Of a stretch of DNA of 64,000 nt, positions 20,467-22,656 are shown piece by piece. How positions within the stretch are numbered: position 1 is the first letter of the stretch; each line of letters opens with the position of its first letter. A program made the translations under genes and the position numbers. The stretch covers positions 2,276,001-2,340,000 of the forward strand of contig NC_018178.1 of the NCBI RefSeq assembly GCF_000279145.1, written 5' to 3'. The notes under the pieces are model-generated. The model was not told the origin of the DNA and made no database searches. It saw only the letters and a list, made by a program, of their open reading frames with translations. This stretch comes from Melioribacter roseus P3M-2 (lineage in GTDB: Bacteria; Bacteroidota; Ignavibacteria; Ignavibacteriales; Melioribacteraceae).

Positions 20467-20908
20467 TTTTAAAACTTTCAAAATAATTTTTATTTAATTC
20501 TTTAGATTCATTATCCAGAATTCCCACAATTACTTCTATACCCGCTTGTCGCAATTCCTCAATACCTTTGCCGTTCACCTGCGGATTGGGATCTATTGAC
20601 GATATTACAACTTTTTTGATTCTGTTCTTAATTATTAATGGCACGCAGGGGGGAGTCTTTTTATTTGTATGACAGCACGGTTCGAGATTGCAATAGAGGG
20701 TAGAGCCTTCAAGATTTACTCCGGCATTATTAATCGCATTAGCTTCCGCATGCGGTCCGCCAAAATATTCATGATACCCCTCGGATAATATTTTATTATC
20801 TCTTACGATGACGCATCCCACTATGGGGTTTGGCTCGACTTTGCCTTGCCCTTTGCGCGCTAATTCAAAACATCGCAAAATATAATCACTGTCTTTTCTT
20901 GTATCCAT
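20459..20908 (-). CDS. ribD: RibD deaminase domain only (pyrimidine deaminase)
   Basis: A 149-residue diaminohydroxyphosphoribosylamino-pyrimidine deaminase. Zinc ligands and catalytic Glu are seen in PHAEANAI and LEPCCHTNKKTPPC, with substrate region VEPNPIVGCVIV. Usual RibD has about 350 residues with a C-terminal NADPH reductase; here the frame stops after NKNYFESFKNV and ribE begins at once. The reductase must be encoded elsewhere or was lost. First gene of the rib operon. No FMN riboswitch is seen upstream. Confidence 0.93.
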   Translation of the reverse strand: MDTRKDSDYILRCFELARKGQGKVEPNPIVGCVIVRDNKILSEGYHEYFGGPHAEANAINNAGVNLEGSTLYCNLEPCCHTNKKTPPCVPLIIKNRIKKVVISSIDPNPQVNGKGIEELRQAGIEVIVGILDNESKELNKNYFESFKNV

Positions 20909-21095
20909 AAAATTAAAAAATTTCGTATCACAAAAATAACTTTATTTCAGGAGTAAAAAAATTAATAGTACTACTATTTCTACGGATGTGTGTAACGACA
21001 TAATAGAATTAAAGGGTGCATATTAGAAGTAAAATTTAAGATTAATTTTTAGTGATTGATAATAGTGTATAAGATACCGGATTGAAAAATAATCA

Positions 21096-21316
21096 TCTTT
21101 TCATGGCCTCGGATTAGTTTTCGTAAGATTCATAATAAATTAACTCAAAGGGTCTACGGTGGCGGATGGACTTGACTGATCCATTCTGATGTTCCCTGAA
21201 ACGACGTGAAATGTCGGATGTCAATCCGACATATCTCTTGTTGTCTTTCAGGCTCCTTAAGACGTAAACGTAAAACATGGGAGTGCAAAAAAATGCAGAG
21301 GCGGCGGTCGGATTCG
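21096..21316. repeat. Direct repeat, copy 1 (221 bp; partner 21404-21624)
   Basis: This block is repeated at 21404-21624 with constant offset 308 and no indels. By eye I count 5 mismatches in 221 bp. It holds most of a GIY-YIG gene, its upstream spacer, and the 3' end of a tRNA-Cys. It looks like a recent local duplication. Confidence 0.9.
21114..21278 (-). pseudogene. GIY-YIG endonuclease gene, truncated copy
   Basis: Second copy of the small GIY-YIG gene next door. Relative to the intact copy, a single T-to-A change on the plus strand at 21116 turns a Lys codon into TAA, cutting the product to 54 residues after YESYEN. The 3' end beyond about 21096 is replaced by unrelated sequence. The GIY-YIG half and the Arg-containing helix remain, but the C-terminal Glu/Lys helix is lost. 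Probably non-functional. Confidence 0.8.
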
Positions 21317-21349
21317 CCCGCCTGAGGCGGGTTGCAGACCTTCGCCTTA
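21299..21349 (-). pseudogene. tRNA-Cys remnant with palindromic replacement
   Basis: A fragment matching the tRNA-Cys gene at 21608-21680. From GATTCG to TTGCAG the normal 18 bases (anticodon-stem 3' side, variable region and part of the T arm) are replaced by the palindrome CCCGCCTGAGGCGGG. The D arm and acceptor 5' half are missing. The stop codon of the intact GIY-YIG gene falls at its edge (21347-21349). Confidence 0.75.
21317..21331. repeat. 15-bp palindrome CCCGCCTGAGGCGGG, copy 1
   Basis: Inverted repeat CCCGCC-TGA-GGCGGG, identical to 21728-21742 and in the same position inside a tRNA-Cys remnant. GC-rich against the AT-rich surroundings. Could be a small interspersed palindromic element. 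Confidence 0.8.
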
Positions 21350-21586
21350 TCGGGAAAGGGAATTCAGGAATTCTCTTCCTTTGCCTGTTTTGAAGAACTT
21401 CTCTCTTTTCATGGCTTCGGATTTGTTTTCGTAAGATTCATAATAAATTAACTCGAAGGGTCTACGGTGGCGGGTGGACTTGACTAATCCATTCTGATGT
21501 TCCCTGAAACGACGTGAAATGTCGGATGTCAATCCGACATATCTCTTGTTGTCTTTCAGGCTCCTTAAGACGTAAACGTAAAACAT
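21347..21586 (-). CDS. Small GIY-YIG nuclease-family protein (UPF0213-like)
   Basis: A 79-residue stand-alone GIY-YIG domain. Seen: FYVYVLRSLKDNKRYVGLT (Tyr pair of the GIY-YIG core), RRFREHQNG (catalytic Arg and His region), RPFELIYYE and the helix SEAMKREKFFKTGKGREFL with the metal-binding Glu. Such mini-proteins are common and often repeated in Bacteroidetes/Chlorobi genomes; cellular role unknown. It lies 21 bases downstream of tRNA-Cys on the same strand, so may be co-transcribed with it. A nearly identical broken copy follows. Confidence 0.88.
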   Translation of the reverse strand: MFYVYVLRSLKDNKRYVGLTSDISRRFREHQNGLVKSTRHRRPFELIYYESYENKSEAMKREKFFKTGKGREFLNSLSR

Positions 21587-21624
21587 GGGAGTGCAAAAAA
21601 ATGCAGAGGCGGCGGTCGGATTCG
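21404..21624. repeat. Direct repeat, copy 2 (221 bp; partner 21096-21316)
   Basis: The copy that carries the intact GIY-YIG start and coding region and the 3' end of the intact tRNA-Cys. See the partner for the comparison. Confidence 0.9.
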
Positions 21625-21680
21625 AACCGACGAATAAAGGTTTTGCAGACCTTCGCCTTAGACCACTTGGCTACGCCGCC
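21608..21680 (-). tRNA. tRNA-Cys (GCA)
   Basis: The complement folds as a complete cloverleaf: acceptor GGCGGCG/CGCCGCC, D arm AGCCAAGTGGTCTAAGGC, anticodon stem AAGGT/ACCTT with loop CTGCAAA (anticodon GCA), T arm GTCGG-TTCGAAT-CCGAC. The 3' CCA is not encoded. It is flanked on both sides by damaged copies of itself. Confidence 0.95.
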
Positions 21681-21714
21681 AATAATAAAACTTTTTTTGA
21701 AGAACGATTAATCA

Positions 21715-21780
21715 GCGGTCGGATTCGCCCGCCTGAGGCGGGTTGCAGACCTTCGCCTTAGACCACTTGGCTACGCCGCC
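21715..21780 (-). pseudogene. tRNA-Cys pseudo-copy with palindromic replacement
   Basis: The 5' half matches tRNA-Cys exactly (acceptor 5' strand, D arm, anticodon GCA), but the 3' anticodon stem and T-arm half are replaced by CCCGCCTGAGGCGGG and the 3' acceptor strand is lost. It cannot fold as a tRNA. Confidence 0.85.
21728..21742. repeat. 15-bp palindrome CCCGCCTGAGGCGGG, copy 2
   Basis: Identical to 21317-21331, with the same flanks GATTCG and TTGCAG. Confidence 0.8.
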
Positions 21781-21883
21781 AATAATAAAAAACTTTTTTG
21801 AAGAACGATTATTCAGCGATTGAAATTATTTCGGGAACAATTATAATTCCTTACTTAAGGCTGCCTTATTAATCAGTTCCGTA

Positions 21884-21913
21884 TAAAAAAGAAATCCCGA
21901 TTGAATCGGGATT
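21884..21913 (-). terminator. Rho-independent terminator after tRNA-Gly
   Basis: Perfect inverted repeat AATCCCGATT/AATCGGGATT. On the minus strand it is followed by TTCTTTTTT. It lies 7 bases downstream of tRNA-Gly. Confidence 0.85.
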
Positions 21914-21920
21914 CGCTTGA

Positions 21921-21992
<72 letters not shown>

Positions 21993-22122
21993 ATAATTTT
22001 ACAAAGAGTGGGATTTCTTATTCACTACTCTTTGTTTTGATTTATTCACCGTATAAAAGAACTAGTCCGTTAAAATTTAGTGCCTAAATATAATACTCTA
22101 TTTAATATCACGCAATAGTTTT

Positions 22123-22656
22123 TTAAACTCTGGGTCCATGCATATACCCCCTGAAAGGGCGTGAATGTTGAATTGTAATGAAAGCGTGATGGTCGATCGA
22201 CTCGACTAGCTTCATTACCTGTTTTAAGTGCTTCCTTTTTATTATTGCAATTAATATCGATATGCCTCCGGAACTACCTTCCGCCGGTAAGATGGTAACT
22301 CCGAATTTTGCCTTCCTTAGCGCGTCTGCGATTTTGTCCGTATAATGTAGAGAAATGATATTAATTTGAACGTATCCGACGGCTATTTTTTCTTCAAGTG
22401 TAACGCCCATAATGTTGCCTAGAGCAAAACCCGCAGCGTATCCGATTAAATTTACCGTATTGTCCATATGAGCTACAATATATCTCATCGCAAAAATCCA
22501 GATCAATACTTCGAAAAAACCGGTTACGGCGGCATGATATTTTTTTGCCTGAACGACAAGCATGGTTCTTAAGGTGCCGAGAGTGACATCGCAAATTCGC
22601 ATCAGCATTATAATTAGAGCGCCGAAAATAATTTCCCACGAGATAAAGAATTCCAT
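22123..22656 (-). CDS. UPF0316 family membrane protein (DUF5698/DUF2179)
   Basis: A 177-residue protein with about three N-terminal membrane segments (residues 8-85) containing the family motif RICDVTLGTLRTMLVVQ, and a C-terminal cytosolic DUF2179-type domain (about 110-165) with GGISILIAIIKRKHL. The function of this family is not established. The gene diverges from pcm across about 50 bases and precedes the tRNA-Gly/tRNA-Cys region on the same strand. Confidence 0.88.
   Translation of the reverse strand: MEFFISWEIIFGALIIMLMRICDVTLGTLRTMLVVQAKKYHAAVTGFFEVLIWIFAMRYIVAHMDNTVNLIGYAAGFALGNIMGVTLEEKIAVGYVQINIISLHYTDKIADALRKAKFGVTILPAEGSSGGISILIAIIKRKHLKQVMKLVESIDHHAFITIQHSRPFRGYMHGPRV

Follow-up and report, generated by a model that had tools for sequence, protein, structure and literature searches.

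The tRNA-Cys locus of Melioribacter roseus P3M-2 is probably (about 0.6 by our estimate) a two-unit array, now in decay, of a minimal mobile element that targets tRNA genes and would spread by homing. One unit is about 300–450 bp long and consists of a GIY-YIG gene for a protein of about 80 aa and a partial copy of the target tRNA, which usually carries a hairpin. Comparison across genomes indicates that the unit lies directly before or after an intact tRNA gene on the same strand, that a second tRNA piece is tagged in a loop, that relatives have empty sites, and that the element has spread between species; the cut, the repair route, and the function of the hairpin are what we infer. The M. 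roseus Cys locus is one case of a widespread pattern, and its recurrence beside many tRNAs in many bacteria suggests a mobile element of minimal size that leaves the invaded tRNA whole.

The locus occupies positions 21081–21818, on the minus strand, of a window of 64,000 nucleotides from contig NC_018178.1 (Table 1). Along the minus strand, a tagged tRNA-Cys piece (21780–21715) is followed by the intact tRNA-Cys, the intact GIY-YIG gene, a second tagged piece (21349–21298), and a broken GIY-YIG copy (21278–21081). The gap between the 3′ end of tRNA-Cys and the GIY-YIG start codon is 19 bp, and the stop codon of the 79-aa gene is overlapped by the partial tRNA-Cys copy at 21298–21349. In both broken tRNA-Cys copies, which have an identical 46-bp stretch in common, the palindrome CCCGCCTGAGGCGGG replaces 18 nt from the anticodon loop to the T-loop. 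The match count of the palindrome at this locus was reached in none of 100 shuffles, and a chance reading was rejected. The GIY-YIG gene was the only ORF in the unit that matched a family we sought, the other listed ORFs being shorter than 70 aa. An Rfam scan of 20900–22200 detected no intron family, and the intact tRNA-Cys was uninterrupted.

Table 1. Features of the tRNA-Cys locus of M. roseus (window coordinates)
Feature	Position	Strand	Basis or remark
Intact tRNA-Cys(gca), presumed target gene	21606..21680	-	ARAGORN; Rfam RF00005, 69.1 bits
Intact 79-aa GIY-YIG nuclease gene	21347..21586	-	Pfam PF01541, E 1.9e-18
Partial tRNA-Cys copy (nt 21-75), hairpin replacing 18 nt	21298..21349	-	blastn, alignment
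Palindrome CCCGCC-TGA-GGCGGG within the partial copy 21298..21349	21317..21331	.	Same-point hairpins in other tRNA-Cys elements
Outermost array unit: broken GIY-YIG copy with a premature stop and an altered 3′ end	21081..21278	-	
Upstream partial tRNA-Cys copy without nuclease gene (nt 1-38, hairpin, T-arm piece)	21715..21780	-	
Palindrome CCCGCC-TGA-GGCGGG, second copy	21728..21742	.	
Direct-repeat copy (tRNA 3′ end and GIY 5′ part)	21404..21624	-	Partner of 21096-21316
Direct-repeat copy	21096..21316	-	Partner of 21404-21624; 98% identity, 5 mismatches

A sequence-only reading of this DNA had described a 221-bp direct repeat with 5 mismatches, and exactly 5 were counted between 21096–21316 and 21404–21624; one of them creates a stop, as had been claimed, by changing a lysine codon of the second GIY-YIG copy, whose ORF encodes 54 aa (21114–21278) compared to 79 aa for the intact gene, which leaves a single intact gene at the locus, also as described. 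The reported tandem repeat of the tRNA with its spacer was likewise found, with a spacing of 100–101 bp, compared to about 103 bp in that reading, and so was a single intact tRNA-Cys: ARAGORN detected one, and a search of the whole genome yielded three matches, all at this locus, with no other intact copy. The hairpins, and the association of nuclease lineages with particular tRNAs described below, are absent from that reading. Although repeats this long can collapse or expand in short-read assemblies, and some draft contigs end within these GIY-YIG genes, the M. roseus genome consists of a single contig, and other genomes show this structure as well. An assembly artefact is extremely improbable since, in particular, another genome of this genus, assembled independently (L037), has the same order of tRNA-Cys, GIY-YIG gene, and hairpin-tagged tRNA piece.

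The 3.30-Mb genome of M. roseus contains 15 small GIY-YIG copies, some of them broken, and 12 of these adjoin seven tRNA genes on the same strand, singly or in arrays (Cys, 2; Asn, 1; Pro(cgg), 3; Ser(gct), 2; Asp, 2; Ser(cga), 1; Leu(caa), 1). Every tRNA-adjacent locus except Leu has a second, partial tRNA copy with a palindrome. TGGCGCCTCAGGCGCCA replaces the 17-nt anticodon arm in the tRNA-Pro piece, TCCGTTAGCTAACGGA and TCCCGCCAAAGGCGGGA lie in the T-loop of the tRNA-Asn piece and the T-arm of the tRNA-Asp piece, respectively, the D-loop of the tRNA-Ser(gct) piece holds two adjacent hairpins, and the tRNA-Ser(cga) piece has the short TGCGTAGCA. The other three copies are located away from tRNAs, two of them within dispersed repeats with a palindromic centre. 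GIY-YIG genes in such repeats (L035 and L036 in M. roseus, L096 and L097 in G016; palindromic centre GTCATTCTGA.. / GTCATTCCCGC..) were also noted for the resemblance of these repeats to REP sequences with a GIY-YIG partner.

Substitution rates were calculated for several copies. The Pro copies had dN and dS of 0.011 and 0.315 within the array and of 0.075 and 1.84 between the two genomes of this genus, values that indicate purifying selection. The corresponding values were 0.054 and 0.618 for the Asp copies, 0.028 and 0.109 for the intact and broken Cys copies, and 0.017 and 0.024 for the M. roseus Ser pair, which showed no clear purifying signal. As an empty-site comparison, the genome G001 of the same genus had flanks too diverged at Leu and Ser(cga), and no Asp or Asn locus was found among the 20 regions compared (of 32 tRNA places). 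In G001 (L108, 850–980, on its minus strand), an intact tRNA-Ser(gct) is accompanied only by a C-terminal GIY-YIG remnant where M. roseus has two units, a state that is possibly due to loss of the element.

Relatives at E 0.001 or better were found in 52 of 58 genomes, M. roseus included. The order-level loci were chosen by protein match among the matches listed, not randomly, and strict de-duplication by any 80-mer shared near the gene reduced 153 rows, those of the multi-phylum set below included, to 139 loci; this criterion also removes some true relatives, including the M. roseus Cys locus, and L044, L058, and L063 were left out as repeats of other loci. A same-strand tRNA was located within 170 bp at 109 of the 139 loci, compared to a chance of about 0.008 per gene, and an opposite-strand tRNA alone at none; these loci were picked by protein similarity, and the proportion is therefore no estimate for GIY-YIG genes in general. 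A lack of further copies near RNA genes had been named as refuting the sequence-only interpretation; such copies were present, in M. roseus itself and among these loci, and one copy was found beside tmRNA. The gene stood upstream of the tRNA in 59 of the 109 loci and downstream in 61, with both arrangements in 11, and the tRNAs within 170 bp of the 139 loci carried 31 anticodons, some perhaps belonging to mere neighbours. In three one-contig genomes, G046, G048, and G035, a tRNA lay alongside 6 of 6, 4 of 7, and 2 of 2 loci among the matches listed, respectively.

The arrangement was also found in other phyla. The best 80 of 363 relatives, ranked by similarity to six tRNA-associated proteins, span Ignavibacteriota, Bacteroidota (including isolates), Calditrichota, Patescibacteria lineages, Chlorobiota, Cloacimonadota, and Omnitrophota. 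Among these 80, which were likewise picked by similarity, 64 had a same-strand tRNA within 200 bp, and 55 of the 64 had a partial tRNA copy exceeding every null score. No nearby tRNA was found at the two loci from Cloacimonadota and the one from Omnitrophota.

Arrays with exact spacing were common, such as five complete 450-bp units and five identical 315-bp units, and the earlier suggestion that the GIY-YIG gene could move or copy itself locally is supported by such identical or near-identical tandem units. In 12 of the 29 arrays that were typed, the outermost unit had lost its outer end, a truncation seen on that side in 1 of 46 other copies; homogenisation of the inner copies could also produce this bias. 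Several arrangements departed from the usual one. In L050 (G034, 1124–1860), the GIY-YIG gene stands directly behind tmRNA and is followed by a piece of the tmRNA 3′ end with a double hairpin in the T-loop, so that the target may be a tRNA-like T-arm and not tRNAs alone. Two Leu-type units (tRNA 5′ piece, hairpin, and GIY-YIG gene) in L074 (G048, 63400–66100) had no intact tRNA in the stretch and represent a relict or an ectopic copy. Tagged tRNA copies with no nuclease gene between them and the intact tRNA downstream were observed in L062 (G028), where they stand in tandem, in L065 (G008), and at 21715–21780 of the window; these are possible non-autonomous units. In L039 (G024), the T-arm and acceptor of the partial tRNA-Cys were unlike those of its own tRNA-Cys and like those of other genera, possibly a trace of a foreign donor or of a later change in the tRNA.

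Partial copies of the adjacent tRNA, defined as scoring above all null alignments (maximum 16.5, n = 156), were detected on the other side of the gene in 95 of 108 tRNA-adjacent loci, and no tRNA piece was found at the remaining 13. Perfect stems of at least 6 bp occurred in 83 of 104 pieces, compared to 33 intact tRNAs and 17 control windows (104 of each examined); 21 of the 104 pieces were without a 6-bp stem. We mapped the 45 inserts with clean blocks on both sides and computed expected counts within the span of each piece. Inserts in the D-loop, T-loop, and anticodon loop numbered 23, 10, and 4 (12.7, 4.2, and 3.1 expected), respectively, and those in stems, the variable region, and elsewhere numbered 2, 0, and 6 (17.5, 1.7, and 5.7 expected), respectively. 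A stem of at least 6 bp within the insert itself was found in 27 of the 45, and in 200 shuffles the mean was 2.35 and the maximum 7.

The D-loop inserts were all in upstream elements and the T-loop inserts all in downstream ones, and the most frequent hairpin site was the D-loop for upstream genes and the T-loop or anticodon loop for downstream genes. This split follows in part from the copying of only one tRNA end: 27 of 28 upstream inserts were in pieces not reaching the T-loop, and 19 of 20 downstream inserts were in pieces not reaching the D-loop. Since the pieces rarely reach the opposite loop, the avoidance of stems is the only independent evidence on placement. Some pieces bear hairpins in two loops, for which a single cut site is insufficient as an explanation, and the loop placement would fit structure recognition as well as cutting. 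The commonest insertion point was between GGTTC and GAATCC or GACTCC in the T-loop and between TGGATA and GA in the D-loop.

The hairpin of tRNA-Cys elements occupied a single position, preceded by CTGCAA and followed by CGAATCC or a similar sequence, in 13 of 22 rows (one locus being represented twice). A CCCGCC/GGCGGG stem with differing loops occurred in 10 rows from nine loci, two of them from Calditrichota, and another stem, beginning with CCCCGA, was found at the same point in four rows, one of which was imperfect; one row had both stems. The junction was not found in 8 of the 22 rows, and one match (L185) had no hairpin. The constant point and the differing stem types suggest that the hairpin is kept despite sequence change.

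It is highly improbable that plain local duplication produced these loci, with GIY-YIG genes lying beside tRNAs fortuitously, tandem copying, and independent mobile palindromes settling in dead pieces. Tandem arrays and decayed copies are indeed present, and the same palindrome occurs alone elsewhere, but the frequency of tRNA adjacency far exceeds chance, the inserts avoid stems, the same arrangement is found across several phyla, and transfer between species is indicated by the following comparison.

Flavobacterium soyangense (L188) carries, ahead of tRNA-Arg(tcg), a unit about 310 bp long that consists of tRNA nt 1–22, CCTGCCTGCCGGCAGGCAGG, tRNA nt 23–36, and then the gene. Among the matches listed for 41 Flavobacterium genomes, the whole query was matched in F. 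soyangense alone, and homology of the flank and tRNA stopped at the last base before the palindrome in at least 9 of the 40 other genomes. Twelve Flavobacterium loci were checked, and tRNA-Arg(tcg) was empty in all 10 that contained the tRNA. L188 was compared with a second Flavobacterium locus (L172), which has a palindrome shorter by 4 nt. Their similarity rises abruptly where the tRNA piece begins and drops past the tRNA: identity was 95.5–95.7% for the GIY-YIG gene, 86.9% for the neighbouring gene, and 77.5% for the upstream flank, and dS was 0.15 and 0.69 for the GIY-YIG and neighbouring genes, respectively. For Xanthomarina and Oceanihabitans, the corresponding dS values were 0.43 and 2.80 (saturated). 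Nucleotide identity of the GIY-YIG gene exceeded that of the neighbouring gene in 10 of 10 Flavobacteriaceae pairs, and dS was lower in 9 of 10, the exception being L188/L166, in which the dS of the GIY-YIG gene was not below that of the flank. As judged from sequence, there has been insertion and horizontal transfer: relatives have empty sites, and the element is much more alike in two species than the DNA around it. These observations extend the suggested movement to movement between species. The comparison at this one tRNA-Arg locus corresponds to the spread of a homing gene into element-free alleles at a fixed site. A tblastn search for a phage or plasmid vehicle matched 20 phage and 9 plasmid records, none with 60% identity or more. 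A scan of 10 genomes located the 20-bp palindrome of the Arg element, CCTGCCTGCCGGCAGGCAGG, at 15 sites in 8 of them, and no tRNA or GIY-YIG gene was present within about 1.5 kb at 11 of these sites (L207–L209, L211–L214, L216, L217, L219, and L220).

The same data bear on an action at the RNA level, in which the protein would act on the tRNA or a transcript (as a toxin, decoy, or processing system) and the hairpins would keep the partial copy unfolded or uncut. Such an action would suit the placement of the hairpins in loops, and seldom in stems, of the folded tRNA, and a piece and gene co-directional with the tRNA. We nevertheless regard it as quite improbable: the empty sites and the transfer at the target locus point to DNA mobility, a system acting on RNA need not adjoin its target gene, and no PADLOC family matched the 79-aa protein. 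The absence of a PADLOC match also led us to reject an anti-phage defence system as a reading of the gene.

The protein shows the tyrosine, tyrosine, arginine, and glutamate expected of the GIY-YIG superfamily. Y5, Y16, R26, H30, and E62, which we take to be the catalytic residues, were invariant in 21 proteins. The closest solved relatives were UPF0213 proteins (PDB 1zg2 and 1ywl; E 6.6e-16), followed by SLX1. Matches to the I-TevI domain (E 0.0019) and to TIGR01453 (26.2 bits, under the cut-off of 56.05) were much weaker. We know of no mobility ascribed to UPF0213 proteins, and a search of the open-licence literature yielded no paper linking UPF0213 with GIY-YIG and tRNA.

Protein trees, which rest on about 85 alignment columns, follow the tRNA. 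A tree of 73 rows (one per locus, at least 62 aa, from 111 sequences) required 28 label changes, compared to 51.7 after shuffling, and a larger tree of 148 rows required 46, compared to 98.4; none of 200 shuffles was as low in either case. Ser-type lineages were mixed in the 73-row tree, and for Ser(gct) 65 of 500 shuffles were as low. The nuclease lineages thus tend to follow one tRNA or a few related tRNAs and not the genome, as far as the trees indicate, although labels cluster under vertical descent at a shared tRNA too. One tRNA-less clade of eight rows in the 73-row tree includes L042, L055, L057, L072, and L073, in which short inverted repeats, CACCCCGTGAAATA / TATTTCACGGGGT or variants thereof, lie close to the GIY-YIG genes, some of which are apparently within other genes; L057 also has a nested small element with the same ends. 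These five loci are possibly a transposon-like relative.

The chief rival explanation, which we consider unlikely, is a REP/RAYT-like system in which the hairpin is the binding or processing site of the enzyme and is cut instead of blocking a cut, movement proceeds via the hairpin as single-stranded or cruciform DNA, and the tRNA pieces guide this movement or supply homology. The kinship to UPF0213 and then to SLX1, a structure-specific endonuclease, would agree with such a system, as would the recurrence of CCCGCC/GGCGGG with differing loops in nine tRNA-Cys loci including those from Calditrichota, the position of tRNA-less GIY-YIG genes in palindromic repeats or between inverted repeats, and the dispersal of solo palindromes, exemplified by that of the Arg element. 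On the other hand, the stem is not constant, given the tRNA-Cys rows beginning with CCCCGA; insertion tracks the tRNA and leaves an intact copy of it, which fits homology-directed homing; and Pfam assigned the 79-aa protein to GIY-YIG, with a weak match to T5orf172, and not to any HUH (REP-associated tyrosine) transposase.

Homing is the simplest account of the element. The nuclease would cut its cognate tRNA gene within a loop, and the break would be repaired from an element-bearing copy via short tRNA homologies on either side, by which the recipient would acquire the gene together with a whole tRNA. In the leftover tRNA copy, the hairpin would fill the cut point and prevent recutting. Occasional cutting of the intact tRNA, followed by repair out of register from the neighbouring piece, might generate the tandem arrays. 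Because the putative cut site is still present in the intact tRNA, self-cutting would have to be either tolerated or avoided. The element may be read as working like a free-standing homing endonuclease that leaves a whole tRNA behind.

A broader proposal is more tentative, and we put it below even odds: that these are very small autonomous elements (about 300 bp with one gene for 80 aa) present in several phyla as families dedicated to particular tRNAs, in which an SLX1/UPF0213-like GIY-YIG enzyme recognises a DNA hairpin and the tagged tRNA copy serves as both landing pad and immunity mark. If this were true, DNA would be moved outside transposases, integrases, and known homing genes, with a footprint of tandem arrays and a clutter of tRNA remnants. 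The element would explain the small GIY-YIG genes and broken tRNA pieces located by tRNAs in Ignavibacteriota, Bacteroidota, Calditrichota, and Patescibacteria lineages. It would also serve as a minimal model, amenable to experiment, for selfish DNA that enters essential RNA genes and leaves them unbroken, and it would link mobility to a protein group (UPF0213-like, akin to SLX1) known mainly via structural genomics. The pattern further suggests a natural set of nucleases sorted by tRNA target.

No description of a GIY-YIG gene combined with a hairpin-tagged tRNA was found in the open-licence literature. The element was compared with systems that share some of its features. Integrative elements with tyrosine integrases target tRNA genes and restore them with a copied part. 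Unlike these, a unit of about 300–450 bp has no room for an integrase and none was found in it; the unit may sit 5′ or 3′ of the tRNA, and the leftover piece usually bears a hairpin. In sequence, the protein is most like the UPF0213 proteins of known structure. In the accounts of REP/RAYT systems available to us, a small enzyme gene is likewise linked to short palindromes, whereas the enzyme of the present element is a GIY-YIG protein with other chemistry, and its palindromes are embedded in a tRNA copy and not spread as many intergenic copies. Group I introns with homing endonucleases reside in tRNA genes (PMC3984707), and nuclease-driven homing at tRNA genes is what we propose for the element; unlike these introns, which interrupt the host gene according to the portion of that source available to us, the element has no intron and its gene stands beside an uninterrupted tRNA. 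The nearest known system in behaviour, as far as the accessible part of the source describes it, is SegB of phage T6, a free-standing GIY-YIG homing endonuclease that amplifies the tRNA-segB segment by recombination (PMC13096335). Like the genes described here, segB of phages T4 and T6 is a free-standing GIY-YIG gene located by tRNAs, and its product promotes tandem amplification of tRNA and gene. The part of PMC13096335 consulted reports no tRNA-isotype preference for SegB and describes no hairpin-tagged partial tRNA, a feature of our element. Unlike phage-borne SegB, the gene of the element is chromosomal and encodes about 80 aa, its lineages tend to follow the tRNA, and its nearest solved structures are those of UPF0213 and SLX1.
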